From Candidatus Rokuibacteriota bacterium (GTDB taxonomy: Bacteria; Methylomirabilota; Methylomirabilia; Rokubacteriales; CSP1-6), in assembly GCA_016184365.1 (NCBI GenBank), contig JACPCW010000074.1:1-64000 (forward strand): a DNA stretch of 64,000 nucleotides, read 5' to 3'. Shown piece by piece: positions 26,195 through 55,268 of this stretch (positions are counted from its first letter, which is position 1; every line of letters begins with the position of its first letter). The translations under genes were made by a program, and so were the position numbers. The notes below the pieces were generated by a model, which was not told the origin of the DNA, searched no databases, and saw only the letters and a list, made by a program, of their open reading frames with translations.

Positions 26195-27127
26195 ATGCCG
26201 AAAGCGGTCGCCGCCGAATACCGGTCGGTCGTGCGCAAACCCGATGACTTCGACGCGTTCTGGAACGACGTGCTGCGGCAGGCCTCGACGATCCCGCTGG
26301 ACGCCGAGGTCGTTCCGGACCCGCTCCGGAGCTCGGACGACGTCGAGGTCTTCCAGGTCTTCTACACGAGCCTCGACCGCGTGCGCGTCGCCGCCTGGTA
26401 CTGCCGGCCGTCGCGCCGGGCGGAGCGCACGCCGGCGATCATGTTCACGCCGGGCTATCAGATGGATCCGCCGATCCCCAAAGACTGGGCGCGGAAAGGC
26501 TACATCGCGCTGTCGGTCGCGCCGCGCGGCAAGCTGCGCAGCATGCGGCAGTTCAATCCCGGGTATCCGAATCTCCTGACGCACGACATCGTCGACCGGC
26601 ACACGTACGCGTATCGCGGGTTCTACGTCGACACCTGGCGCGGCGTCGATTTCCTCCTCTCGCGCCCGGACGTCGACGCGGCCCGCATCGGCGTGACGGG
26701 CAGCAGTCAGGGCGGGGGCCTCACGATCACGACGGCCGCGATGCGACGGGAGGTGCGCGCGGCCGCCGCCGGCGCCCCGTACCTCTGCGGCTTCATGGAC
26801 GCCATCGAGCTGACGCACACGTATCCGTACGAAGAGATCAACGACTATCTGCGCCTCCATCCCGACCGGCGCCAGGCGGTCGCGGAGACCCTCGCCTACT
26901 TCGACGGGATCAACTTCGCGGACAGGATCACGTGCCCGGTCGTCGTGAACATCGGGCTTCGAGACAATGTGTGTCCGCCGGAAACGGGCTACGCGCTGTT
27001 CAACCGGATCGCCGCGAAGGACAAGCAGCTCCATCCCTACGACGGCCACGGTCACGAAGCGGGACGCGTGCATCACGGCGCGGTCGTCGACCGATTCTTT
27101 GCGGAACACCTGGGAGCCGCGACATGA
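26195..27127 (+). CDS. acetylxylan esterase (AXE1)-like alpha/beta hydrolase, intact triad
   Basis: The 310-aa protein is an AXE1/cephalosporin-C deacetylase-like esterase: WNDVLRQASTIPLDAEVV in the N-terminal cap, FTPGYQMDPPIPKDW, nucleophile elbow GVTGSSQGGGL, aspartate region NIGLRDNVCPPETG and histidine region YDGHGHEAGR. All three catalytic residues are visible. It would hydrolyse an ester of an unknown acyl compound. The next gene starts inside its stop (ATGA) and is a catalytically dead paralogue, so the two probably act as a pair. Confidence 0.9.
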   Translation: MPKAVAAEYRSVVRKPDDFDAFWNDVLRQASTIPLDAEVVPDPLRSSDDVEVFQVFYTSLDRVRVAAWYCRPSRRAERTPAIMFTPGYQMDPPIPKDWARKGYIALSVAPRGKLRSMRQFNPGYPNLLTHDIVDRHTYAYRGFYVDTWRGVDFLLSRPDVDAARIGVTGSSQGGGLTITTAAMRREVRAAAAGAPYLCGFMDAIELTHTYPYEEINDYLRLHPDRRQAVAETLAYFDGINFADRITCPVVVNIGLRDNVCPPETGYALFNRIAAKDKQLHPYDGHGHEAGRVHHGAVVDRFFAEHLGAAT

Positions 27128-28023
27128 CGGACGCGCGCGACGACTGGCAGCCGACGCTCGACGAGCTGGCGCGCTATCCGGCGCGCCCCGACATCGAGGT
27201 GCTGCCCCTGCGGAGCACCGCGTTCGCGACGCTGTACGGCGTTCGCCTCACCAGCCTCGGCCCGTACCGACTCTTCGGGTATCTGAGCATCCCGACCGGC
27301 AGCGGACCGTTTCCGGCGATCTACTATGCGCCGAAGTATCAGAGCGTCCTCGAGATCATTCCGCAGGGCACCGCGAATCTGCAGCGGAGCCGGTACATCA
27401 CCTGGAGCCTGGCCGGGCGCGGACAGCGCAACGCCGATTCGCCCTACGCCGCGATGTTTCCCGGGCTCCTCACCGACGGCATCGACGACGCGAGGGCGTA
27501 CGTCTTCCGCGGCATCGTGGCGGACAGCGTTCGAGGTCTGGAGTTCCTGCTCACGCGGCCGGAGCTCGATCCCGCACGCGTCGTTGTGTTCGGCAACGAC
27601 CTGGCGCTCATCACGGCCGCGCTCGCGCCGGGCGCCAGCCACGTGGTGACGACGCCGGCCCTGTTCCACGACACGGCGGCGCTGGCCCCGAAGACGCAGG
27701 CGTATCCGCTCGAAGAGATCAACGACTATCTCCGGCGATTTCCCGAGCGGATCGAGGCCGTGCACCGCACGCTGGCGGGCTTCGATCTGCGCGCGTTCGC
27801 GCCGCGCGTGACCGCCACCACGCTCCTCATGGCTGGCGCGCCGGGCAGCGCGCTGGACCGGCGCGCGCTGCAGCCACTCGCGGCGGCGCTCCGCGGCCCG
27901 GTGACCGTCTACGAATCACAGCAGTCGAGCTACAAGGACGGTCTCTACGTCGAGGAGTGGATGGCCGCCCGGTGCGGCATCACGGACGTGCAGGTGATCC
28001 TGCCGGAGCACTGGCGAGCCTAG
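27124..28023 (+). CDS. AXE1-like paralogue lacking the catalytic triad (pseudoenzyme)
   Basis: This 299-aa protein shares with its upstream neighbour the segments RGxxADSVRGLEFLLTRPELD and EEINDYLRRFPER, so it is a paralogue of the same fold. But the nucleophile elbow GVTGSSQGG is replaced by VVFGNDLALI (serine gone), the histidine region YDGHGHEAG by YESQQSSYKDG (no histidine), and the aspartate position by MAGAPGSALD. It is therefore likely non-catalytic, a structural or regulatory partner of the active esterase. The frame is intact and the overlap ATGA is kept, so it is not a decaying gene. Confidence 0.85.
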   Translation: MTDARDDWQPTLDELARYPARPDIEVLPLRSTAFATLYGVRLTSLGPYRLFGYLSIPTGSGPFPAIYYAPKYQSVLEIIPQGTANLQRSRYITWSLAGRGQRNADSPYAAMFPGLLTDGIDDARAYVFRGIVADSVRGLEFLLTRPELDPARVVVFGNDLALITAALAPGASHVVTTPALFHDTAALAPKTQAYPLEEINDYLRRFPERIEAVHRTLAGFDLRAFAPRVTATTLLMAGAPGSALDRRALQPLAAALRGPVTVYESQQSSYKDGLYVEEWMAARCGITDVQVILPEHWRA

Positions 28024-28047: not shown

Positions 28048-28053
28048 TATACT
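28048..28053 (+). promoter_or_regulatory. -10 promoter-like hexamer TATACT
   Basis: TATACT at 28048-28053 lies in the only gap of this cluster, 27 bp before the ATG at 28081. No good -35 is seen. A GGGGGTG ribosome-site-like stretch follows. It supports a fresh transcription start for the genes from 28081. Confidence 0.4.
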
Positions 28054-28080: not shown

Positions 28081-29637
28081 ATGGCGACGACGACCGCGGC
28101 TTCGACCGAGTCAGCGTCCGACGCTGACTACGCCCGTCTCGAAGAACGCATTCTCGCGCGGGATCAGCTCGGCGCGAGCCAGGCGCTCTATGGCCTGCTG
28201 AAGCGGAAACGGCCCGTCACGGACATCCTGCGCCAGACCATTCGCATCCACGCCCCCTACACCCACGTGCCGTATCACCAGCGCCTCGACGACGGCCTCG
28301 TGAAGTTCGTGAACAACGATCACTGCTTCCTCAGCGAGCGCGTCGGGCTGCCGCTCATGTCGATGATCCGCCCGGAGCTCGCGCTGCTCCCGCTCGCGCA
28401 GACCGTCTGGTACATGCCGACCGGCCTCGATCCATGGAACCAGCTCCTCGGCAAGGCGCCGGGGCATTACACGCGCCTCTACAACATCGCCGTGAACCAG
28501 GCGCCGCCGATGCCCGAAATCCACTGGCCCGATCAGGAGCCGGTGCATCTCGAGGGCCCGATCGGCGAGCGGCTCAACCACTGGCTCACGCTCGTGCAGC
28601 GCGGCGACGTGGTCGCGTCGTATCGCGTGTTCCTCGGCCTGATGGACGACGTACCGAACCGGCGCGCGGTGCTGGCGCAGCTCGCGTTCGCCGGGCTCAT
28701 CGACGTGCAGGACCGGATGTTCCACAACCGCTCCTACACGACGGGGCACAAGGCGTATCGCGCGCGCGCCACCATCGAGCTCGGCGAAGCGTTCGGATGG
28801 CACGACGCGCACAGCGTGCTCTATGCCGGCGTGCCGGACATCGCCGTCGGGCCGCGCTGGTATTCCACCTACGAGATGGGTGGCAACGTCGTGCAGAACG
28901 TCCTCGAGGGACGCGATCGCGAGCTGCTCGCGCAGCGCGAGCCGCTCACCGCCGCCGAAGAGGCGATGCTCGTCGAGACGATCACGCGCCAGCGCGAGCC
29001 GTCGGTGATCGACGCGGTGGTCGCGCTGCTCCGCGCCGGCCGGAGCCCGCGCCGCATCCTCGATGCGATCCAGATCGCCTCGGCGCAGGTCATCCTCGAG
29101 ACGGGCCATCCGACCAACTTCTCGATGTCGCAGCACGGCTACGAGTACTGCAACACGGTCGGCTGGTTCTTCGACACCTTCGAGCATCCCCATCGGCTGA
29201 AGCTGCTGTTCGTCGCCGCGGCGTTCATCACTCGCGCGGCCGAGCATCAGGCGATCACGCCGAACAACGGACGCCGCGCGATCACGATGCCGGCGGGCGC
29301 GGACACGCGGTCCGCGCCGCAGCTCCTCGAACGGCTGGAGACCGCGCTGCTCGCGCTCCGGCCCGACGAGTCGGTCGACCTGACGGCGGCGTATCTCCGC
29401 GCGGGTCACGATCGCGCGCCGCTCGTGCAGACGCTCGCGACGGCGGCGGCGAAGGTCGGCAACGATCCGCACAACCAGGAGCTCGGGCTCTGCCTGCTGG
29501 AGGATTACGGACACACCCAGGCGCACGATCGTGACCGGCTGCTGCTGGCGTCCGCGCAGCACACGGCCGGCCACCGCAAGTACGGCGACCATCTCGAGGC
29601 GTACCGCCGGTTCGCCGAGGCCTTCGACCTCCTATGA
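28081..29637 (+). CDS. unrecognised 518-aa helical protein in a dioxygenase cluster
   Basis: I use the ATG at 28081 (MATTTAASTESASDADYAR), which follows the promoter-like site; the ORF track starts in the promoter. The protein is soluble and mostly helical. Helical segments such as LGASQALYGLLKRKRPVTDIL and PSVIDAVVALLRAGRSPRRIL look like repeated units, and the region around QVILETGHPTNFSMSQHGYEYCN and LKLLFVAAAFITRAAEHQ has histidines that could bind metal. There is a faint resemblance in helix pattern to the questin-oxidase-like family, which I do not trust. Its stop overlaps the first possible start of the LigB-like gene (CTATGA), so it belongs to the oxygenase operon. Confidence 0.6.
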   Translation: MATTTAASTESASDADYARLEERILARDQLGASQALYGLLKRKRPVTDILRQTIRIHAPYTHVPYHQRLDDGLVKFVNNDHCFLSERVGLPLMSMIRPELALLPLAQTVWYMPTGLDPWNQLLGKAPGHYTRLYNIAVNQAPPMPEIHWPDQEPVHLEGPIGERLNHWLTLVQRGDVVASYRVFLGLMDDVPNRRAVLAQLAFAGLIDVQDRMFHNRSYTTGHKAYRARATIELGEAFGWHDAHSVLYAGVPDIAVGPRWYSTYEMGGNVVQNVLEGRDRELLAQREPLTAAEEAMLVETITRQREPSVIDAVVALLRAGRSPRRILDAIQIASAQVILETGHPTNFSMSQHGYEYCNTVGWFFDTFEHPHRLKLLFVAAAFITRAAEHQAITPNNGRRAITMPAGADTRSAPQLLERLETALLALRPDESVDLTAAYLRAGHDRAPLVQTLATAAAKVGNDPHNQELGLCLLEDYGHTQAHDRDRLLLASAQHTAGHRKYGDHLEAYRRFAEAFDLL

Positions 29638-29648
29638 AGGAGACGGAC

Positions 29649-30704
29649 ATGGGCGAGATTCTCGGGCTCGGCATGACGCACTATCCGCCGCTCGTCGGCG
29701 TCGACGAGAACATGGCGCACATCCTCAAGACCGTCCTGAAGGATCCTGGGCTACCGGAGCGCTATCGCGATCCCGCGAACTGGCCCGAGCCGCTGCGGCG
29801 CGAGTTCGGCGACGACGGCGGCAAGAAATCCGCCGCGGTGCATCGCGCCGAGCTGGTCCGTCATTTCCGCCACGCGCGAAAGCTCCTCGACGACTTCCGG
29901 CCCGACGTCGTCGTCATCTGGGGCGACGACCAGCACGAGAACTTCACCGAGGACGTCATCCCGCCCTTCTGCGTGCTCGCGTACGACGCGATCGAGGCGC
30001 GGCATCGCCCGCGCGACACCGCCGCGCCGAACACGTGGAACGAGACCGCGGAGACGGTCTTCCGGTACGCCGGGCACCGCGCCGCGGGCAAGTTCCTGGC
30101 GGCGCGGCTGATCGAGCAGGGCGTCGACGTGGCGTACGCGTACACGCCGCTCCATCACGCGGGCCTCGCGCACGCGTTCCTCAACACGCTGCTGTTCCTC
30201 GATTACGATCGCGCCGGCTTTCCGTATCCCGTCCTGCCGTTCCAGGTGAACTGCTACGGCCGGCGCGTCATCGCGCAGCGCGGGTACCGCAGCAGTCTCG
30301 CGAACCCGATCCCCGAGGCCGACCTGGATCCGCCGTCGCCGTCGCCGAAGCGCTGCATGGAGATGGGCGCGGCCGTCGCCCGCGCCGTGCGCGAGAGTCC
30401 CTGGCGCACGGCGCTCATCGCGTCGTCGAGCTGGTCGCACGCGTTCCTGGTCGACAAGCACTACCAGCTCTATCCGGACATCCCCGCCGACCGGCGGCTG
30501 TACGAGGCGCTGGCGCGCGGCGACTGGGACGCGTGGCGCCAGACGCCGCTCGCCGCCATCGAAGAATCCGGGCAGCACGAGATGCTGAACTGGTTCGCGC
30601 TCGCCGGCGCCATGGAAGAGCTCGGGCGCAAGCCCGACGAGTGCGAGTTCGTCGAGACGTGGACGTTCAACTCGAACAAATGCTTCGCGGTGTTCCGGCC
30701 GTGA
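29649..30704 (+). CDS. LigB-like class III extradiol ring-cleavage dioxygenase family protein
   Basis: This 351-aa protein begins GEILGLGMTHYPPLVGVDEN, carries VVVIWGDDQHENFTEDV, a histidine-rich YTPLHHAGLAHAFLNT, and ASSSWSHAFLVDKHY, giving the His/Glu ligands of the LigB-type iron dioxygenases. I place the start at 29649 because AAGGAG sits 7 bases upstream; the alternative ATG at 29634 lies inside the preceding stop. It would open an aromatic ring, or bind iron in a related role. It overlaps the Rieske gene by GTGA. Confidence 0.85.
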   Translation: MGEILGLGMTHYPPLVGVDENMAHILKTVLKDPGLPERYRDPANWPEPLRREFGDDGGKKSAAVHRAELVRHFRHARKLLDDFRPDVVVIWGDDQHENFTEDVIPPFCVLAYDAIEARHRPRDTAAPNTWNETAETVFRYAGHRAAGKFLAARLIEQGVDVAYAYTPLHHAGLAHAFLNTLLFLDYDRAGFPYPVLPFQVNCYGRRVIAQRGYRSSLANPIPEADLDPPSPSPKRCMEMGAAVARAVRESPWRTALIASSSWSHAFLVDKHYQLYPDIPADRRLYEALARGDWDAWRQTPLAAIEESGQHEMLNWFALAGAMEELGRKPDECEFVETWTFNSNKCFAVFRP

Positions 30705-31969
30705 CGACCGACCGCGCGAGCGGCGTCGTCCCGAAGCTCTCCGGCGACATCCGGCCGCTCATCCCGAAGCTCGGGCTCCGCAATTACTGGTACCCGGTCG
30801 TCGCCGATCGCAAGGTCGGCTCGCGCAAGCCGATGAAGGTCGCGCTGCTCGGCGAGGAGCTCTGTCTCTTCCGCGGCGCCGCCGGCAACGTCGTCGCCAT
30901 CCAGGACGTCTGTCCGCACCGCGGCGCGCGACTCAGCGAAGGCGACTGCCACTACCGCGGCACCGTCGCGTGTCCGTATCACGGCTGGGTGTACGACGAG
31001 GCCGGCAAGAACACGATGGTGCTGTCCGAAGGCCCGGGCTCCGGCGTGTGCGGCAAGCCGGGCACCGAGGCGCGCGTGTATCCGACGCGCACGCTGAAGG
31101 GCGTCGTGTTCGCCTGGATCGGCGACGGCGACCCGGCGCCGATCGACGAGGACGTGCCGGAGGAGTTCTTCGACGACGACGCGCTCGTGCTGACGGGGCA
31201 GGTCGAGTGGCGCTGCAACTGGGAAGTCGCGCTGGAGAACTCGATGGACTCGCACGTGAACTACGTGCACCGCGACGCGTTCGTCGTGGCGCGCAACGGG
31301 TTCATCGCGCGCGGCGCGCAGGGCGAGCATCCGATCTTCGTCGGCAACGGCTTCGGCGGCGACGTCGCGGAGAGCAACTATCTCCGCCGCAGCCCGCAGC
31401 ACGACCTCTATGCCGACGGCCGCGAGTGGCCGAAGACGAACTACCGTCGCTACTGGACGTGGCTCTTCCGCCCGCTCGCGGAGCGCGCGCGGCGACACAT
31501 TCCGGCGCCGAAGTCCGCGCGCTGGTGCGGTGGCCATCACCTGCCCGGCATGTTCCGCACGGAGTTCGCGTGGGATCTCTACACGCGGATGTGCGTGCCC
31601 GTCGAAAAGCACCTGACGCGCGTCTGGTACTACCACTGCGTGCGACCGAAGACGGCGCTCGGGCGCTGGTGGCAGACCGTCCTCTATTACGGCCTGCACC
31701 GCTGGATCATCGAGTACAACTTCTCGCGCCAGGACGAGAAGGTCATGGTGAACCAGCGCTACGACACGCCGGAGAAGCTGTCGGGCACCGACGCCGAAGT
31801 GATCCAGTGGCGCCGCCTCGTCGTCACCAAGCACTACGGCGGACGCGACGCGGCGTTCGAGTACCGGAACCCCGACGGTCTCGCTCCCGACGCCGTGCCG
31901 CTCGAGCGCGTGTCGGTCCGCTATCTGCAGGAGCAGGCGCGGCGCGCGAAGACGACGACGTCGCGGTGA
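30701..31969 (+). CDS. Rieske [2Fe-2S] aromatic ring-hydroxylating oxygenase, alpha subunit-like
   Basis: The 422-aa protein starts at a GTG overlapping the previous stop. It has the Rieske cluster motifs CPHRGARL and CPYHGW (residues about 70-95) and the mononuclear iron motif NSMDSHVNYVH, which supplies two histidines, with the third carboxylate further on. It would insert oxygen into an aromatic or related substrate, receiving electrons from an unseen reductase. In order with the LigB-like enzyme downstream of an unrecognised protein, this reads as a hydroxylation then ring-cleavage unit. Confidence 0.93.
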   Translation: MTTDRASGVVPKLSGDIRPLIPKLGLRNYWYPVVADRKVGSRKPMKVALLGEELCLFRGAAGNVVAIQDVCPHRGARLSEGDCHYRGTVACPYHGWVYDEAGKNTMVLSEGPGSGVCGKPGTEARVYPTRTLKGVVFAWIGDGDPAPIDEDVPEEFFDDDALVLTGQVEWRCNWEVALENSMDSHVNYVHRDAFVVARNGFIARGAQGEHPIFVGNGFGGDVAESNYLRRSPQHDLYADGREWPKTNYRRYWTWLFRPLAERARRHIPAPKSARWCGGHHLPGMFRTEFAWDLYTRMCVPVEKHLTRVWYYHCVRPKTALGRWWQTVLYYGLHRWIIEYNFSRQDEKVMVNQRYDTPEKLSGTDAEVIQWRRLVVTKHYGGRDAAFEYRNPDGLAPDAVPLERVSVRYLQEQARRAKTTTSR

Positions 31970-46784: not shown

Positions 46785-49700
46785 GTGGTGTCCGGTTTCC
46801 CTCTCCAGAAAGGCGGCTTGCCGATCGCTCCGAAGTCCCTCGAGCCTCCGATCCGTGCCGAGATCTTCGGCATCGAGCGCTTCGAGCAGCACGCCGAGAC
46901 CCTCGCGGCCGCCCAGCGCGTGGCCGGACCGTCCGGCCGCGGCAAGCGCTTGCTGTCGCGCGTGGAAGACAACGGCCGCGTGCTGCGCGACTCGTACCGC
47001 GCGATCGCCGAGGCGATCCGCGAGGAGCGCGCGATCACCCCCGCGGCGGAGTGGCTCGTCGACAACTTCCACGTGGTCGACGAACAGCTGCGCGAGATCC
47101 GCGACGATCTACCGCCCGGGTACTACCGCGAGCTGCCCAAGCTCGCCGACGGACCGCTCGCCGGATATCCGCGCGTCTACGGGCTCGCATGGGCGTTCGT
47201 CGCCCACACCGACAGCCGCTTCGATCCCGAGACCCTCCGGCGCTTCGTGCGCGCCTACCAGCGCGTGCAGCCGCTGACGATCGGCGAGCTGTGGGCGGTG
47301 GCGATCACGCTGCGCGTCGTGCTCGTGGAGAATCTTCGCCGCCTGGCGGAAGCCATCGTGCGCGGGCGCGCCGCGCGCCAGGAGGCCGACGCGCTGGCCG
47401 ACGATCTGCTCGGCGTCGGCGACGGCGTGGTCACGCCCGCGGCGAAGGCGCTCGCGCACTACGAGGGCGGCCCGCTGATGACGGCGTTCGCGGTGCAGCT
47501 CGTCCAGCGGCTGCGCGAGCAGGATCGCGCCGTGACGCCGACGCTCGTCTGGCTCGACCGGCGGCTCGAGGCGCAGGGCACGACGGCCGAGGACATCGTC
47601 CGCGTCGAGCATCAGCGGCAGGCCGCGATGAACGTGACCGTCCGCAACGTGATCCTGAGCATGAGCCTGATGTCCGCGCTCGACTGGACGGAGTTCTTCG
47701 AGGCCGTCAGCCTCGTCGACGACGTGCTGCGCACGGGCCCGAACTACGGCGCGATGGACTTCGCGACGCGCGACGCCTACCGTCATGCCGTCGAGGACCT
47801 CGCGCGGGGATCGAGCCGCCCCGAGCAGGACGTGGCGCGCGAGACCGTGGCGCGAACGCGCCCGGCGGATGCGAGCGGCGACGATCGGCGAACCGATGCC
47901 GGCTTTCACCTGATCGGCGCCGGACGCGCGACCCTCGAGCTGGCGCTCGGCTACCGCGCGCCGCTGATGCGCCGGCTGCTTCGCGGCTATCTCGCGGCGG
48001 CGACGCCCGGGTATCTGGGAATGATCGCCGTGCTGAGCGGCCTCGTGTTCATGCTGCCCGTCCTCGCGGCCGGAGCTTCCGGCGTGGGGCCGATGGGCCT
48101 GCTGCTGCTCGCGTTGCTCGCCGTCATCCCGGCCTCGGACCTCGCCATCGCGCTGCTCAATCGAAGCGTCACGGCGCTCGTCCCGCCGCGCGCGCTGCCG
48201 CGACTCGAGCTCGGCGACGGCATCCCGCCGTCGCTGCGCACCCTGGTCGTCGTGCCGATGCTGCTGACCGATCGCGCCGAAGTCGCCGAGCAGGTCGAGC
48301 GGCTCGAAGTGCACTACCTGGCGAATCCGGACGGCGACGTTCGCTTCGCCGTGCTGTCCGACTGGACGGATGCGCCGTCGGAGGCGATGCCGGGTGACGA
48401 GGCAGCGCTCGGCGCCGCGCGCGAGGGGATCGCCCGTCTCAACCGGCGCCACGGCCTGGTGCCGGATGGCGGCGAGCGGTTCCTGCTCTTCCACCGCCGC
48501 CGGCTCTGGAACGAGAGCGAGCGGGTCTGGATGGGATGGGAGCGCAAGCGCGGCAAGCTCCACGAGCTGAATCGGCTTCTGCGCGGAGCGGCCGACACCA
48601 GCTTCGTGACCGGCAGCACGCCGCCCGCCGGTGTCCGTTACGTCGTCACGCTCGACTCGGACACGCGGCTGCCGCGGGGCGCGGTGCAACGGCTGGTCGG
48701 CACGCTCGCGCATCCGCTCAACCGGCCACGCTTCGAGCCCGCCGGACGGCGCGTCGTCGAGGGGCACGCCGTGCTGCAGCCGCGCGTGACGCCGCCGCTC
48801 CCCGGACTCGAAGGCTCGTTCTTCCAGCGGCTGTCGTCCGGTCCGGCGGGCATCGATCCATACGCCGCGGCCGTGTCCGACGTGTACCAGGACCTCTGGG
48901 GCGAAGGCTCGTACACGGGCAAAGGCATCTACGACGTGGACGCCTTCGAGACGGCGCTGGCGGGCCGGGTGCCGGAGAACGCGCTGCTGAGTCACGATCT
49001 GTTCGAAGGCGTGTTCGCGCGGGCCGGGCTCGTCACGGACGTCGAGCTGTTCGAGAGCGCGCCATCGCACTACGGCGTGGCGGCCGCGCGGCAGCACCGG
49101 TGGGCCCGGGGCGACTGGCAGCTCCTGCCGTGGATCGTCCGCAGCCGTATCCCGGTCATCGGACGCTGGAAGATGCTGGACAACCTGCGCCGCACGCTGT
49201 CCGCGCCGGCCGCCTTCCTGACCCTCGTGGTCGCGTGGACGCTGCCCGGCACGTCACCGCCGCTCTGGAGCGCCTTCATCCTGGCGACCGTGGCCGTGCC
49301 GGCGGTCCTGCCGGTGCTCGGCGGCGTGATCCCTCGCCGACGCGGCATCTCGAAGCGCAGTCATGGCCGCGCCGTGGGCCGAGACGTGGTCCAGGCGACT
49401 TCACACGTCGGACTCGCCGTCACGATGCTCGCGTACCAGGCCTGGCTGATGAGTGATGCGATCGTCCGGACGCTCGCGCGCCTGTACGTCACGCGCCGCC
49501 GGCTGCTGGAATGGATGACCGCGGCGCAGGCGAAAGCCGGGCTGCGTCTCGATCTGCGCGGCTTCGGCCAGCGCATGGGCGGCGGGCTCGCGCTCGCCGC
49601 CGCGGCGGCGCTCGCGGTGGCGTGGGGCCGGCCCGACGCGTGGTCGGCCGCGCTGCCCTTCGTGCTGCTGTGGCTCGCGGCGCCGGCGATCGCCCGATGG

Positions 49701-52700
49701 ATCAGCCTGCCGCGCAGCACCGCGCCGTCCCGGCCGCTCGCGCCGACGGAGGTGGAAGCGCTCCGGTTGATCGCGCGGCGCACGTGGCGGTTCTTCGCGA
49801 CCTTCGTCGGTCCCGACGACCACGCGTTGCCGCCCGACAACTTCCAGGAATCGCCGAGCCCGGTGATCGCGCATCGCACGTCGCCGACGAACATCGGGCT
49901 GTACCTGCTGTCCACGGTGGCGGGGCGCGATTTCGGCTGGCTCGGCACGGTCGAGACCGTCGAGCGGCTCGAGGCGACGGTCGCGACCATGAACTCGCTC
50001 GACCGCTTCCGCGGCCACTTCTACAACTGGTACGACACCGAGCACGGCCGTCCGCTCGAGCCCATGTACGTCTCGTCGGTCGACAGCGGCAATCTCGCCG
50101 GCCATCTCATCGCGCTGGCGCACGCCTGCGAGGAGATGATCGCCCGCCCGCGCCTCGACCGCGCGGCGCTCGCCGGCATCGACGACACCGCGCGGCTCGT
50201 CGGCGTGTCCGCCGCGGCCGTCGGCGGCGCCCGCCACGGCGGCACCACGCACGACCGGCTGACGCAGGCGCTCGACGGCGTCGCGGCGGCGGTCCAGGAG
50301 CCCCCGCGCGACCCGTCGTCGTGGGGCGCGCGGCTGGCGGCGCTGCAGGCGCACGCGCGCGCGGTGCTGGACGCCGCGCACGCGTTCGTCGACGAGGACG
50401 CCGAGCGCGCGCGGACGGACGTCCTCGTCTGGGCCGAGGCGCTCTGCGCCACCGTCGACAGTCACGCGCGTGACCTCGCCGCGACCGACCCGCTGGCTCC
50501 GCGCCTCTCCGCGCTCGCCGGGCACGCACGCGCCCTGAGCCGCGGCATGGACTTCGGCTTCCTCTTCGACCCGATGCGGAAGCTGTTCGCGATCGGCTAT
50601 CGCGTCGCGGACGGCAGCCTCGATCCCGGCCGGTACGACCTGCTCGCGTCGGAAGCGCGGCTCACGAGCTTCGTCGCGATCGCGAAGGGCGACGTCCCCG
50701 TGTCGCACTGGTTCCGGCTGGGCCGGTCCCTCACCCCGGTAGAACAGGACTCGGTGCTCGTCTCCTGGTCGGGGTCGATGTTCGAGTACCTGATGCCCGC
50801 GCTCGTCATGCACACGCCGGCGGGCAGCCTCCTCGAACAGACGTCCCGGCTCGTCGTGCGCCGGCAGATCGCGTACGGCGCCGAGCGTGGGGTGCCGTGG
50901 GGCGTCTCGGAGTCCGGCTACAACGTGCGCGACCGCCACATGACCTACCAGTATTCGAACTTCGGCGTGCCCGGGCTCGGGCTGCGACGGGGACTCGGCG
51001 AGGACGTCGTCGTGGCGCCGTACGCCACCGGACTGGCAGCGATGATCGACCCGGGGGCCGCGCTCCGTAACTTCCGGCGGCTGGCGGCGGCGGGCGCGAG
51101 CGGGGCGTATGGCTTTTACGAGGCGGTCGATTACACGGCGCCGCGCCTGCCCGAGTCGGCCGAGCTCGCGGTGGTCCGCGCCTACATGGCGCACCACCAG
51201 GGCATGGTGATCGTCGCGATCGCGAACGCCCTCCACGACGGCGCGATGCGCGCGCGCTTCCATGCCGAGCCGAGCGTCCAGGCGACCGAGCTGCTGCTCC
51301 AGGAACGCACCCCGCGCGGCGTGGCGGTCGCGCGGCCGCGCGCGGAGGAGGTCGAGGCCGCCGGCGATGTGCGCGACCTCGTGCCGCCGGTCGAGCGGCA
51401 TTTCACGTCGCCGCACGCGTCGACGCCCCGCACCCAGCTCCTCTCGAACGGGCGCTACGCGGTCATGCTGACGGCGGCCGGCTCGGGGTACAGCCGCTGG
51501 CGCGATCTCGCGATCACCCGCTGGCGTGAGGACGTCACGCGTGACGCGTCGGGGACGTACGTGTTCGTCCGCGACGCGGACAGTGGCGCGACCTGGTCGG
51601 CCGGGTACCAGCCGTGCGGCACCGAGCCAGACTCGTACGCGGTCACGTTCTCCGAGGATCGCGCCGAGATCGTCCGGCGCGACGGGGACATCACCACCAC
51701 GCTGCAGGTCATCGTGTCGCCCGAGGACGACGCCGAGGTCCGTCGCGTCTCGCTGACGAACTTCGGCGCGAGGAGCCGTGACGTCGAGCTGACGTCGTAC
51801 GCGGAAGTCGTGCTGGCGCCCCCCGCGGCCGACGCGGCGCATCCGGCGTTCTCCAACCTGAGCGTGCAGACGGAGTGCGTCCCCGAGCTCGACACGCTGC
51901 TGGCCCGGCGCCGGCCGCGGTCGCCCGGTGAGACCGAGGTCTGGCTCGCCCACGTGGCGGTCGTCGACGGCGAAGCGGCCGGAAGCCCGGAGTGGGAAAC
52001 CGATCGCGCGCGGTTCCTCGGGCGCGGGCGCGGCATCCGGAATCCCGCCGCGGTGCTGGACGGGACTCCGCTCTCCGGCACCGTCGGCGCGGTGCTCGAT
52101 CCGATCGTGAGCCTCCGGCGGCGCGTGCGGCTTCGTCCGGGCGCGACCGCGCGCATCACGTTCTCGACGCTCGTCGCGCCGTCGCGCGCCGAGGCGCTGG
52201 GCCTGGCCGAGAAGTATCGCGACGCGTCGACGTTCGACCGCGTCCGGACGCTCGCGTGGACGCAGGCGCAGGTCCAGATGCACCACCTCGGCATCGGTCC
52301 GGACGAGGCGCACCTCTTCCAGACCCTCGCCGGTCGCGTGCTCTATTCCGACCGGGCGCTCCGGCCGGCGCCGGACGTGCTCGCGCGTCACGCCGGCGGT
52401 CAGGACGCGCTCTGGGCGCACGGGATTTCCGGCGACCTCCCGATCGTCCTCGTGCAGATCGACGAGCCCGAGGACATCGGCATCGTGCGCCAGCTGCTTC
52501 GCGCGCACGAGTACTGGGGGATGAAACGTCTCGCGGTCGACCTCGTGATCCTCAACGAGCGCGCGCCGTCCTACCTGCAGGACTTGCAGTCGGCGCTCGA
52601 GACGCTCCTGCGCACGAGCCGGTCGATCGGACCGGACGACGGACACGCGCCCCATGGCCACGTGTCGATCGTGCGAGGGGACCGCGTGACGGCGCGGCAA

Positions 52701-55268
52701 CGCGACGTCCTCCAGGCCGTCGCGCGCGCGGTGCTGTCGGGCCGGCGCGGGACGCTGGCCGAGCAGCTCGCGCACGCGCAGCGCCCCGACAGCGCGCCGG
52801 CGGCCGCGCCGCGGCGAGCGACGGCGACGAAACCCGAGCCCGGCGCAGCGGTCACGTCGCGGGATCTCGAGCTCTTCAACGGGCTCGGCGGCTTCGCGGC
52901 GGACGGGCGCGAGTACGTGACGATCCTCGAGCCGGGCGCATGGACGCCGGCGCCCTGGATCAACGTCATCGCGAATCCGGGGTTCGGCTTCCAGGTCTCC
53001 GAGTCGGGCGCGGGGTACACGTGGTCGATCAACAGCCGCGAGAACCAGCTCACCCCGTGGTCGAACGATCCGGTCCTCGACCCGCCGGGCGAGACGATGT
53101 ACGTGCGCGACGAAGAGACGGGCGCGGTGTGGGGACCGACGGCGCTGCCGATCCGCGAGCCCTCGCCGTACGTCGTCCGGCACGGCCAGGGGTACACGCG
53201 CTTCGAGCACGTCTCGCATGGCGTGTCACTCGAGCTCCTGCAGCTCGTGCCGGTCTCCGACTCGATCAAGCTCTCGCGCCTGACGCTGACGAACCTCTCG
53301 GGCCGCGCGCGACGGCTGTCGGTGACCGCCTATGTCGAGTGGGTGCTCGGGGTCTCGCGCAGCGACGCCGCGCCGCACGTCGTCACCGAGGTCGACGGAG
53401 CGACGGGCGCGATCTTCGCGCGGAATTCGTGGAGCCGCGAGTTCGGCGGCCGCGTCGCGTTCGCGGATCTCGGCGGGCTCCAGACGGCGTGGACCGCGGA
53501 CCGCACGGAGTTTCTCGGGCGTCACGGCACCATGGATCAGCCGGCGGCGCTCCGGCGAAAGGATCGTCTCTCGGGACGGGTCGGCGCCGGCCTCGATCCG
53601 TGCGGCGCCCTGCAGGCGACGTTCGACCTGCCCGCTTCCGCGCGAATGGACGTCGTGTTCTTCCTCGGCGAAGCGGCGAGCGCCGGGCAGGCCCGCGAGC
53701 TCATCGAGCGCTATCGAACGTCGGACGTGGCCGTCGTCCTCCAGGCGGTCCGCGCGGGCTGGGACGACCGGCTCGACACCGTGCAGGTGACGACGCCCGA
53801 TCGGTCCCTCGACCTGCTGCTCAACCGCTGGCTGCTGTACCAGACCCTCGCGTGCCGGGTCTGGGCGCGCGCGGCGTTCTATCAGGCCGGCGGGGCGTAC
53901 GGCTTCCGCGATCAGGTCCAGGACGTGATGGCGCTCGCGATCGCCGATCCCGCGATCGCGCGCGAGCATCTGCTCCGCGCCGCGGCGCGGCAGTTCACCG
54001 AGGGCGACGTCCAGCACTGGTGGCATCCGCCCGGCGGTCGCGGCGTGCGGACCCGGATCACGGACGATCTCCTCTGGCTGCCGTACGTCGCGCGCCGTTA
54101 CGTCGACGTCACGGGTGACGAGGGCATCCTCGACGAGATCGTCGCCTTTCTCGACGGGCCCACGCTCGATGCCGGGCAGACGGAGTCGTACTTCGAGCCG
54201 CGCGTCTCGGACGAGCGGGCCGCGCTGTACGAGCACTGCGCGCGCGCCCTCGACTGGAGCCTGACGGTCGGCGCGCACGGCCTGCCGCTCATGGGCACGG
54301 GCGACTGGAACGACGGGATGAACGAGGTGGGCGCCGGGGGGAAGGGCGAGAGCGTCTGGCTCGGATGGTTCCTGCACGTCGTCCTGTCGGAATGGGCGGA
54401 CGTGGCCGACGCGCGCGGCGACGGCAAGCGCGCCGACCGGTGGCGGGACCACGCGCGCGCGCTCGGAGCATCGCTCGAGCGCGAGGCCTGGGACGGTGAC
54501 TGGTACCGGCGCGCGTACTTCGACGACGGCACGCCGCTCGGCTCCGCCACCAACGACGCATGCCGCATCGATTCGATCGCGCAATCCTGGAGCGTCATCT
54601 CGGGCGCGGCCGACCCTGCCCGCCAGGCGCGCGCCATGGCGGCGGTCGACGAGCGCCTCGTCCGTCGCGCCGATGGCCTCGTGCTGCTGTTCACGCCGCC
54701 GTTCGACGACACGCGCCTCGAGCCGGGCTACATCAAGGGCTACGTGCCCGGCGTCCGTGAAAACGGCGGCCAGTACACGCACGCGGCGATGTGGGTGGCC
54801 ATCGCCTTCGCCATGCTCGGCGACGGCGACGCGGCCGCCGAGATTCTCGCGCTGTCGAATCCGATCAACCGCTCCCGCACCGCGGCGGACGTGCGGCGGT
54901 ATCGCGTCGAACCCTACGTCGTCGCGGCCGACGTCTACGCCGAGCCGCCGCACGTGGGGCGCGGCGGCTGGACGTGGTACACGGGGTCCGCGGGCTGGAT
55001 GTATCGGGCGGGGCTCGAATCGGTGCTCGGATTCCGGCTGCGGGGCACGCGGCTCGTGATCGACCCGTGCATCCCGCGCGCGTGGCCCGGGTTCGAGATC
55101 GCGTTCCGCTATCGCTCGGCGCGCTATGCGATCGTCGTGAGCAATCCGCGCGGCGTGTCGAGCGGCGTGTCGTCGGTGGACGTCGATGGCGTCGTCCTCG
55201 CCAGTGCCCCCGCCATCATGCTCGCGGACGACGGCCAGACGCACCGCGTCCGGATCGTGCTCGGCTGA
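46785..55268 (+). CDS. ndvB: cyclic beta-1,2-glucan synthase (NdvB-like)
   Basis: This ~2,827-aa protein has the full NdvB layout and length. From a GTG at 46785 (TTG at 46818 is also possible), the N-terminal helical part (ERFEQHAETLAAAQRVAGP) leads to membrane segments near 48,000-48,180 and a glycosyltransferase-84 domain with TLDSDTRLPRGAVQRLVG and a QHRWARGDW-type motif (RQHRWARGDWQLLPWI). A glycoamylase-like domain follows (WGVSESGYNVRDRHMTYQYS; RAYMAHHQGMVIVAIANAL). Two glycosyltransferase-36/GH94 beta regions and a catalytic (alpha/alpha)6 domain come last, with MGTGDWNDGMNEVGAGGKG carrying the general acid. It makes osmotically regulated periplasmic cyclic glucans. No ndvA-type exporter is nearby. 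The shared motif at 46710 suggests stress control. Confidence 0.93.
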   Translation: MVSGFPLQKGGLPIAPKSLEPPIRAEIFGIERFEQHAETLAAAQRVAGPSGRGKRLLSRVEDNGRVLRDSYRAIAEAIREERAITPAAEWLVDNFHVVDEQLREIRDDLPPGYYRELPKLADGPLAGYPRVYGLAWAFVAHTDSRFDPETLRRFVRAYQRVQPLTIGELWAVAITLRVVLVENLRRLAEAIVRGRAARQEADALADDLLGVGDGVVTPAAKALAHYEGGPLMTAFAVQLVQRLREQDRAVTPTLVWLDRRLEAQGTTAEDIVRVEHQRQAAMNVTVRNVILSMSLMSALDWTEFFEAVSLVDDVLRTGPNYGAMDFATRDAYRHAVEDLARGSSRPEQDVARETVARTRPADASGDDRRTDAGFHLIGAGRATLELALGYRAPLMRRLLRGYLAAATPGYLGMIAVLSGLVFMLPVLAAGASGVGPMGLLLLALLAVIPASDLAIALLNRSVTALVPPRALPRLELGDGIPPSLRTLVVVPMLLTDRAEVAEQVERLEVHYLANPDGDVRFAVLSDWTDAPSEAMPGDEAALGAAREGIARLNRRHGLVPDGGERFLLFHRRRLWNESERVWMGWERKRGKLHELNRLLRGAADTSFVTGSTPPAGVRYVVTLDSDTRLPRGAVQRLVGTLAHPLNRPRFEPAGRRVVEGHAVLQPRVTPPLPGLEGSFFQRLSSGPAGIDPYAAAVSDVYQDLWGEGSYTGKGIYDVDAFETALAGRVPENALLSHDLFEGVFARAGLVTDVELFESAPSHYGVAAARQHRWARGDWQLLPWIVRSRIPVIGRWKMLDNLRRTLSAPAAFLTLVVAWTLPGTSPPLWSAFILATVAVPAVLPVLGGVIPRRRGISKRSHGRAVGRDVVQATSHVGLAVTMLAYQAWLMSDAIVRTLARLYVTRRRLLEWMTAAQAKAGLRLDLRGFGQRMGGGLALAAAAALAVAWGRPDAWSAALPFVLLWLAAPAIARWISLPRSTAPSRPLAPTEVEALRLIARRTWRFFATFVGPDDHALPPDNFQESPSPVIAHRTSPTNIGLYLLSTVAGRDFGWLGTVETVERLEATVATMNSLDRFRGHFYNWYDTEHGRPLEPMYVSSVDSGNLAGHLIALAHACEEMIARPRLDRAALAGIDDTARLVGVSAAAVGGARHGGTTHDRLTQALDGVAAAVQEPPRDPSSWGARLAALQAHARAVLDAAHAFVDEDAERARTDVLVWAEALCATVDSHARDLAATDPLAPRLSALAGHARALSRGMDFGFLFDPMRKLFAIGYRVADGSLDPGRYDLLASEARLTSFVAIAKGDVPVSHWFRLGRSLTPVEQDSVLVSWSGSMFEYLMPALVMHTPAGSLLEQTSRLVVRRQIAYGAERGVPWGVSESGYNVRDRHMTYQYSNFGVPGLGLRRGLGEDVVVAPYATGLAAMIDPGAALRNFRRLAAAGASGAYGFYEAVDYTAPRLPESAELAVVRAYMAHHQGMVIVAIANALHDGAMRARFHAEPSVQATELLLQERTPRGVAVARPRAEEVEAAGDVRDLVPPVERHFTSPHASTPRTQLLSNGRYAVMLTAAGSGYSRWRDLAITRWREDVTRDASGTYVFVRDADSGATWSAGYQPCGTEPDSYAVTFSEDRAEIVRRDGDITTTLQVIVSPEDDAEVRRVSLTNFGARSRDVELTSYAEVVLAPPAADAAHPAFSNLSVQTECVPELDTLLARRRPRSPGETEVWLAHVAVVDGEAAGSPEWETDRARFLGRGRGIRNPAAVLDGTPLSGTVGAVLDPIVSLRRRVRLRPGATARITFSTLVAPSRAEALGLAEKYRDASTFDRVRTLAWTQAQVQMHHLGIGPDEAHLFQTLAGRVLYSDRALRPAPDVLARHAGGQDALWAHGISGDLPIVLVQIDEPEDIGIVRQLLRAHEYWGMKRLAVDLVILNERAPSYLQDLQSALETLLRTSRSIGPDDGHAPHGHVSIVRGDRVTARQRDVLQAVARAVLSGRRGTLAEQLAHAQRPDSAPAAAPRRATATKPEPGAAVTSRDLELFNGLGGFAADGREYVTILEPGAWTPAPWINVIANPGFGFQVSESGAGYTWSINSRENQLTPWSNDPVLDPPGETMYVRDEETGAVWGPTALPIREPSPYVVRHGQGYTRFEHVSHGVSLELLQLVPVSDSIKLSRLTLTNLSGRARRLSVTAYVEWVLGVSRSDAAPHVVTEVDGATGAIFARNSWSREFGGRVAFADLGGLQTAWTADRTEFLGRHGTMDQPAALRRKDRLSGRVGAGLDPCGALQATFDLPASARMDVVFFLGEAASAGQARELIERYRTSDVAVVLQAVRAGWDDRLDTVQVTTPDRSLDLLLNRWLLYQTLACRVWARAAFYQAGGAYGFRDQVQDVMALAIADPAIAREHLLRAAARQFTEGDVQHWWHPPGGRGVRTRITDDLLWLPYVARRYVDVTGDEGILDEIVAFLDGPTLDAGQTESYFEPRVSDERAALYEHCARALDWSLTVGAHGLPLMGTGDWNDGMNEVGAGGKGESVWLGWFLHVVLSEWADVADARGDGKRADRWRDHARALGASLEREAWDGDWYRRAYFDDGTPLGSATNDACRIDSIAQSWSVISGAADPARQARAMAAVDERLVRRADGLVLLFTPPFDDTRLEPGYIKGYVPGVRENGGQYTHAAMWVAIAFAMLGDGDAAAEILALSNPINRSRTAADVRRYRVEPYVVAADVYAEPPHVGRGGWTWYTGSAGWMYRAGLESVLGFRLRGTRLVIDPCIPRAWPGFEIAFRYRSARYAIVVSNPRGVSSGVSSVDVDGVVLASAPAIMLADDGQTHRVRIVLG

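Follow-up and report, generated by a model that had tools for sequence, protein, structure and literature searches.

An undescribed, widespread bacterial superfamily of four helical repeats whose conserved histidines may form a non-heme iron site

The window analyzed here, 64,000 nucleotides of a 92.8-kb contig from a Candidatus Rokuibacteriota bacterium (JACPCW010000074.1), contains a 518-residue open frame, a genuine gene by its translation and its homologues, whose product (P518) is one branch of an undescribed, widespread bacterial superfamily of four helical repeats. Four histidines are conserved in P518 and its relatives, and we consider it an evenly balanced proposition that P518 is a mononuclear non-heme iron oxygenase, working by analogy in the four-histidine manner of AflY, BTG13, and PaD, with all four histidines on one metal. 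The gene and its key codons are as follows.

28081..29637, + strand: P518, of an unnamed four-repeat, four-histidine family (translation, homologues, model, conservation)
28321..28323, + strand: codon of His81, repeat 1 (VNNDH), which starts helix 81-93
28747..28749, + strand: codon of His223, repeat 2 (TTGHK..R), which starts helix 223-238
29134..29136, + strand: codon of His352, repeat 3 (SQHGYEY), within helix 347-366
29470..29472, + strand: codon of His464, repeat 4 (DPHNQE), near the start of helix 463-478
29479..29481, + strand: codon of Glu467, three residues past His464, the spacing of His374 and Lys377 in BTG13

As the initial annotation stated, P518 falls in no known family: Pfam, NCBIfam, and the PDB contain no sequence match, a profile search of the PDB using the family returned nothing, the plasmid collection yielded no P518, and BFVD gave just weak matches to RarA-like or unnamed proteins, the RarA of Orpheovirus among them. 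Relatives are encoded at 251 places in the GTDB species genomes, and their taxonomy and neighborhoods were taken from the best 80 of these, which lie in Rokubacteria, Alphaproteobacteria (Reyranella, Bradyrhizobium, Acetobacteraceae), Chloroflexota, Entotheonella, Binatota, and Tectomicrobia. Among 95 genomes of the phylum, 27 further ones carry homologues, most of them 59-81% identical; all 27 belong to the same taxonomic family, and no genome beyond it has one. Rokubacteria also carry a second copy at ~37% identity. More distant branches were found in Chloroflexota and Alphaproteobacteria; reciprocal profiles tie to the P518 family both the group of a distant relative, L180 (3.6e-19, reverse 4.8e-12), and a group fused to a Rieske domain (2.6e-10, reverse 6.6e-8). 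The profile-profile search suggested in the initial annotation connected P518 to these two distant branches (hhalign probability 97-98%), but not to the questin oxidases discussed below (at most 4%).

Structure prediction, also suggested there, gave a confident AlphaFold model (predicted local distance difference test, pLDDT, 91.6; predicted template-modeling score, pTM, 0.91) that is all-helical, as had been expected from the sequence, and consists of four repeats, each made of two hairpins.

Residues 29-41, 46-60, 81-93, and 103-115: helices of repeat 1 (AlphaFold model)
Residues 177-189, 191-206, 223-238, and 244-250: helices of repeat 2 (AlphaFold model)
Residues 306-318, 323-339, 347-366, and 372-392: helices of repeat 3 (AlphaFold model)
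Residues 428-440, 445-458, 463-478, and 485-497: helices of repeat 4 (AlphaFold model)

A second AlphaFold model, of L180, has the same four-repeat plan. The internal repeats suspected earlier are therefore borne out as a four-fold arrangement in the model, although their signal at the sequence level is weak (P = 3e-4 for repeats 3 and 4, P = 8e-4 for repeats 1 and 3).

P518 has 24 histidines, of which just His81, His223, His352, and His464 are shared by 79 or more of 82 sequences; the next, His66, is kept in 76 of the 82 and is absent from the distant branches. Among 103 relatives, His223, His352, and His464 are each present in 102, and His81 is a histidine in 86 (79 of the 82). One of the two metal-binding motifs initially proposed is accordingly retained, since SQHGYEY holds His352, whereas the histidine of ETGHP, His343, is a histidine in just 5 of the 82. 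In both independent models, of P518 and of L180, the conserved histidine of every repeat falls at or close to the beginning of helix 3. The sole exception among the 103 relatives, L183 (733-2169), has lost all four histidines at once (replaced by N, Y, N, and R) while keeping the family signature, and would serve as a natural metal-free control. Histidines that bind a shared metal would be expected to be kept together and lost together, as these are, and we infer that His81, His223, His352, and His464 most likely come together around a single metal ion. Position 467 varies by subgroup among the 103 relatives (E in 59, Q in 20, K in 13, R in 10, A in 1), with Glu in P518, Lys in its paralogues, and Gln or Arg in other branches.

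In the mechanism that we propose, each of the four helical repeats would give one histidine from close to the beginning of helix 3, the four (81, 223, 352, and 464) would meet on a single metal ion, and a fifth ligand, or a base, might be provided by the side chain at position 467 (E, K, Q, or R, depending on the subgroup), one helical turn past the last histidine. P518 itself would work unaided, its substrate being a small aromatic or quinone-like molecule, whereas the Rieske-fused branches would draw electrons from their own [2Fe-2S] domain. In these branches, a Rieske ferredoxin [2Fe-2S] domain (CPHxGFPL...CHWHHARFD) stands N-terminal to the helical domain and is followed by the four-repeat part. 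Of 24 genomes from one Chloroflexota order, 20 encode the fusion, 19 of them with CxH..CxxH in frame; it also occurs in two Alphaproteobacteria.

L186:463-2229: Rieske-fused protein
L222:655-2655: Rieske-fused protein
L197-L216: Rieske-fused proteins

The helical part of the L186 and L222 proteins is homologous to P518 by reciprocal profiles and shares three of its four histidines; unlike P518, these proteins have the extra N-terminal ferredoxin domain and are missing the first histidine. Because the ferredoxin domain sits on the same chain, redox chemistry is favored at the helical metal site. More tentatively, and in our estimate short of an even chance, hundreds of species may encode mononuclear metal oxygenases of a superfamily not described before, its members consisting of four one-histidine repeats, with a Rieske domain fused in some branches, where this catalytic domain would take the place of the classical Rieske-oxygenase domain. 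If true, the Rieske-fused branch would represent a new architecture for electron delivery to a non-heme metal site, and a family missed by the catalogues (~250 encoding places across GTDB species genomes, in lineages that include uncultured soil and marine ones) would acquire a function open to testing, along with four named residues. The main useful result is the four-histidine family itself.

The comparison with known enzymes centers on AflY (8yxs), described in its PDB entry as a non-heme iron dioxygenase, which among the 50 PDB matches listed is the sole full-length neighbor of the P518 model with a template-modeling (TM) score above 0.3 (0.37/0.41). AflY, BTG13 (7y3w), and the hydroquinone dioxygenase PaD (8z4q) make up part of the questin-oxidase family PF14027, no member of which was found in the window's own genome. 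In the bacterial questin oxidases collected here, H28, H117, H234, and H303 are invariant and follow the same order as in P518, and the last of them lies in a D-x-H-x-x-K motif, of which the His and Lys are residues 374 and 377 in BTG13; we take Lys377 to be a carboxylated lysine that binds the iron. P518 has Glu at this position, and just 13 of its 103 relatives have Lys. PF14027 proteins thus resemble P518 in being all-helical, in the order of their four histidine motifs, and in having a side chain three residues past the last histidine, but differ from it in length (about 340-470 residues versus 518) and in giving neither a Pfam nor a profile-profile match. A repeat-against-repeat comparison with the questin oxidases gave a best P of 0.0013 among 16 pairs (repeat 1 to questin-oxidase repeat 3), which is out of phase and is not evidence.

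Several observations weigh against a questin-oxidase-like oxygenase. The AflY match has a Foldseek E-value of 0.97, a probability of 0.47, and a TM score below 0.5, and the L180 model gave no questin-oxidase structure match at all. With or without the bridging branches, hhalign against the bacterial questin oxidases gave probabilities of 0.1-4%, and direct HMM comparison was not significant either; the Rieske-fused branch does without the first histidine; and the neighbors of the P518 family range from enoyl-CoA hydratase to aldolase. Because the sequence homology tests failed, the TM score stays below 0.5, and the second model is without a match, we propose that P518 works like the questin oxidases and do not claim that it is a member of PF14027. 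That P518 does belong to PF14027 as a highly diverged member, related by descent and not just by analogy, is a stronger form of the same proposal rather than an alternative to it, and one that we find possible though doubtful. Beyond the status of AflY as sole full-length fold neighbor and the shared histidine order, it would account for the D-x-H at the last histidine, for an Arg four residues past the second, for the coincidence of the Glu467 position with that of Lys377 in BTG13, and for a suboptimal in-phase alignment of 300 columns. It is opposed by the hhalign probabilities and the L180 model just described, and by Pfam, in which P518 has no PF14027 match at E<=1 and the family is missed in 55 of 55 members.

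The histidine conservation is compatible with any metal, and P518 could instead be a metal enzyme of another class (a hydrolase, lyase, or isomerase) on the same four-histidine scaffold, the Rieske fusion then being a separate branch. Neither P518 nor most of its relatives carry a redox domain, and enoyl-CoA hydratases, hydrolases, and transporters are among the neighbors. However, Rieske-fused branches in two phyla favor redox chemistry, and all-histidine sites are commoner with iron or copper than in zinc hydrolases; we therefore regard a non-redox enzyme as unlikely. More improbable still is a non-catalytic helical scaffold akin to the RarA/clamp-loader collar domain, in which the histidines would be structural. 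The RarA C-terminal domain (3bge) matches the P518 model locally with probability 1.00, superposing over 107 residues (alignment columns) at 2.1 Å, the RarA of Orpheovirus was among the BFVD matches, and Pfam MgsA_C scores weakly in 3 of 55 family members. Nevertheless, the match spans about one of the four repeats, P518 is without an AAA+ domain, RarA is not known to have a comparable set of four histidines, and a scaffold would leave unexplained both the joint conservation and loss of the four histidines and the Rieske fusion. Separately, in a member of the P518 family (L107:10001-11581, residues 324-372) the repeat locally resembles the RarA/MgsA C-terminal domain (PF12002) in fold, and weakly in Pfam. 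This domain is a possible origin of the repeat.

P518 is flanked by two independent modules: upstream, two AXE1 genes for an esterase and a probable pseudoesterase, and downstream, a LigB-like/Rieske/short-chain dehydrogenase (SDR) group, with one small gene between the Rieske and SDR genes.

26195..27127, + strand: AXE1a, AXE1-type esterase with the GSSQGG nucleophile motif (Pfam AXE1 2e-69; conserved pair)
27124..28023, + strand: AXE1b, AXE1 paralogue without the nucleophile Ser, FGNDLA (Pfam AXE1 1.7e-18; orthologue MGNDMA)
29637..29642, + strand: AAGGAG ribosome-binding site of the LigB-like gene (sequence)
29649..30704, + strand: LigB-like protein, 351 residues, Gln95 at the second metal-histidine position (Pfam LigB 1.7e-11)
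29931-29933: codon of Gln95 in the LigB-like gene, WGDDQ[HY]ENF versus APDHYNGF of class III extradiol dioxygenases
30701..31969, + strand: Rieske non-heme oxygenase, carbazole-dioxygenase-like, 422 residues
32622..33440, + strand: SDR, recurring partner of the Rieske gene (78-84% orthologue downstream of Rieske on the same contig in 6 of 7 contexts)

The LigB-like and Rieske genes do follow P518 directly, as first annotated. The LigB-like gene was also thought to overlap P518 at its start; its conserved N-terminus MGEILGLG and the AAGGAG site place the start at ATG 29649, 11 nucleotides past the P518 stop. The promoter-like site at 28048 proved to be a lone TATACT, and a scan of 26-33.5 kb found no sigma-70-like promoter (0.4 expected). 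AXE1a, AXE1b, P518, and the LigB-like and Rieske genes all run in one direction with gaps of -4 to 57 nucleotides, and could well share a transcript in this genome.

From this arrangement the initial annotation derived a single five-gene pathway in which an unknown compound would be cleaved at an ester bond, hydroxylated, and opened at its ring. We compared the AXE1a, AXE1b, LigB-like, Rieske, and SDR proteins by tblastn with the 80 P518-relative loci; none has the window's AXE1, LigB, or Rieske genes adjoining, and LigB and Rieske matches at these loci are distant only (25-31% identity). Clustering of all open reading frames within 8 kb of the 80 loci revealed no common partner of P518, nor did a Pfam tally of 109 flanking genes, in which enoyl-CoA hydratase appears in 10. 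No conserved neighborhood was found, an outcome that the initial annotation itself had named as counting against its proposal. The modules are also separable: in 13 of 13 other genomes with both P518 and Rieske genes, the two are on separate contigs, whereas the AXE1 pair is adjacent in 13 of 13 other genomes that carry it, and the Rieske gene, in seven contexts, has the SDR (78-84% identity) downstream in six and LigB alongside in four. P518, the AXE1 pair, and LigB-Rieske are adjacent in this genome only. Co-occurrence of the genes, which had been put forward as a check, is significant across 57 genomes (P 1e-6 to 2e-4), but is confounded by phylogeny: a single family, and within it the same few genera, accounts for most occurrences of every gene, and coupling is not demonstrated by it. 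With AXE1b lacking its nucleophile and the LigB-like protein its second metal histidine, a five-gene pathway is very improbable despite the co-directional layout, and its appearance is, as far as conservation shows, a local neighbor effect.

AXE1a has the catalytic serine motif GSSQGG, and because FGNDLA replaces it in AXE1b, with MGNDMA in the orthologue, AXE1b is by sequence probably a conserved pseudoesterase. The LigB-like protein matches Pfam LigB (1.7e-11, 44.2 bits versus a cut-off of 26.3). In its group H11, H264, and E311 are invariant, but an invariant Gln95 occupies the position of the second metal histidine of MhpB and LigB, and the His-His-Glu metal triad is thus incomplete. The Rieske oxygenase (PF00355 2.6e-20) has an invariant CxH..CxxH motif (C71/H73/C91/H94) and a mononuclear iron motif, ENSMDSHVNYVH, that reads D-x1-H-x4-H against the expected D-x2-H-x3/4-H and is invariant in the subfamily; in carbazole dioxygenase the first histidine of this motif sits one position later. 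In two genomes (L151:8080-12526 and L143:8816-17375), the Rieske gene is followed by genes resembling, on sequence alone, the binding-protein, ATPase, and permease genes of an ATP-binding cassette transporter, which may import the substrate of the Rieske oxygenase. Elsewhere in the window, positions 46785-55268 form a single open frame of 2827 residues.

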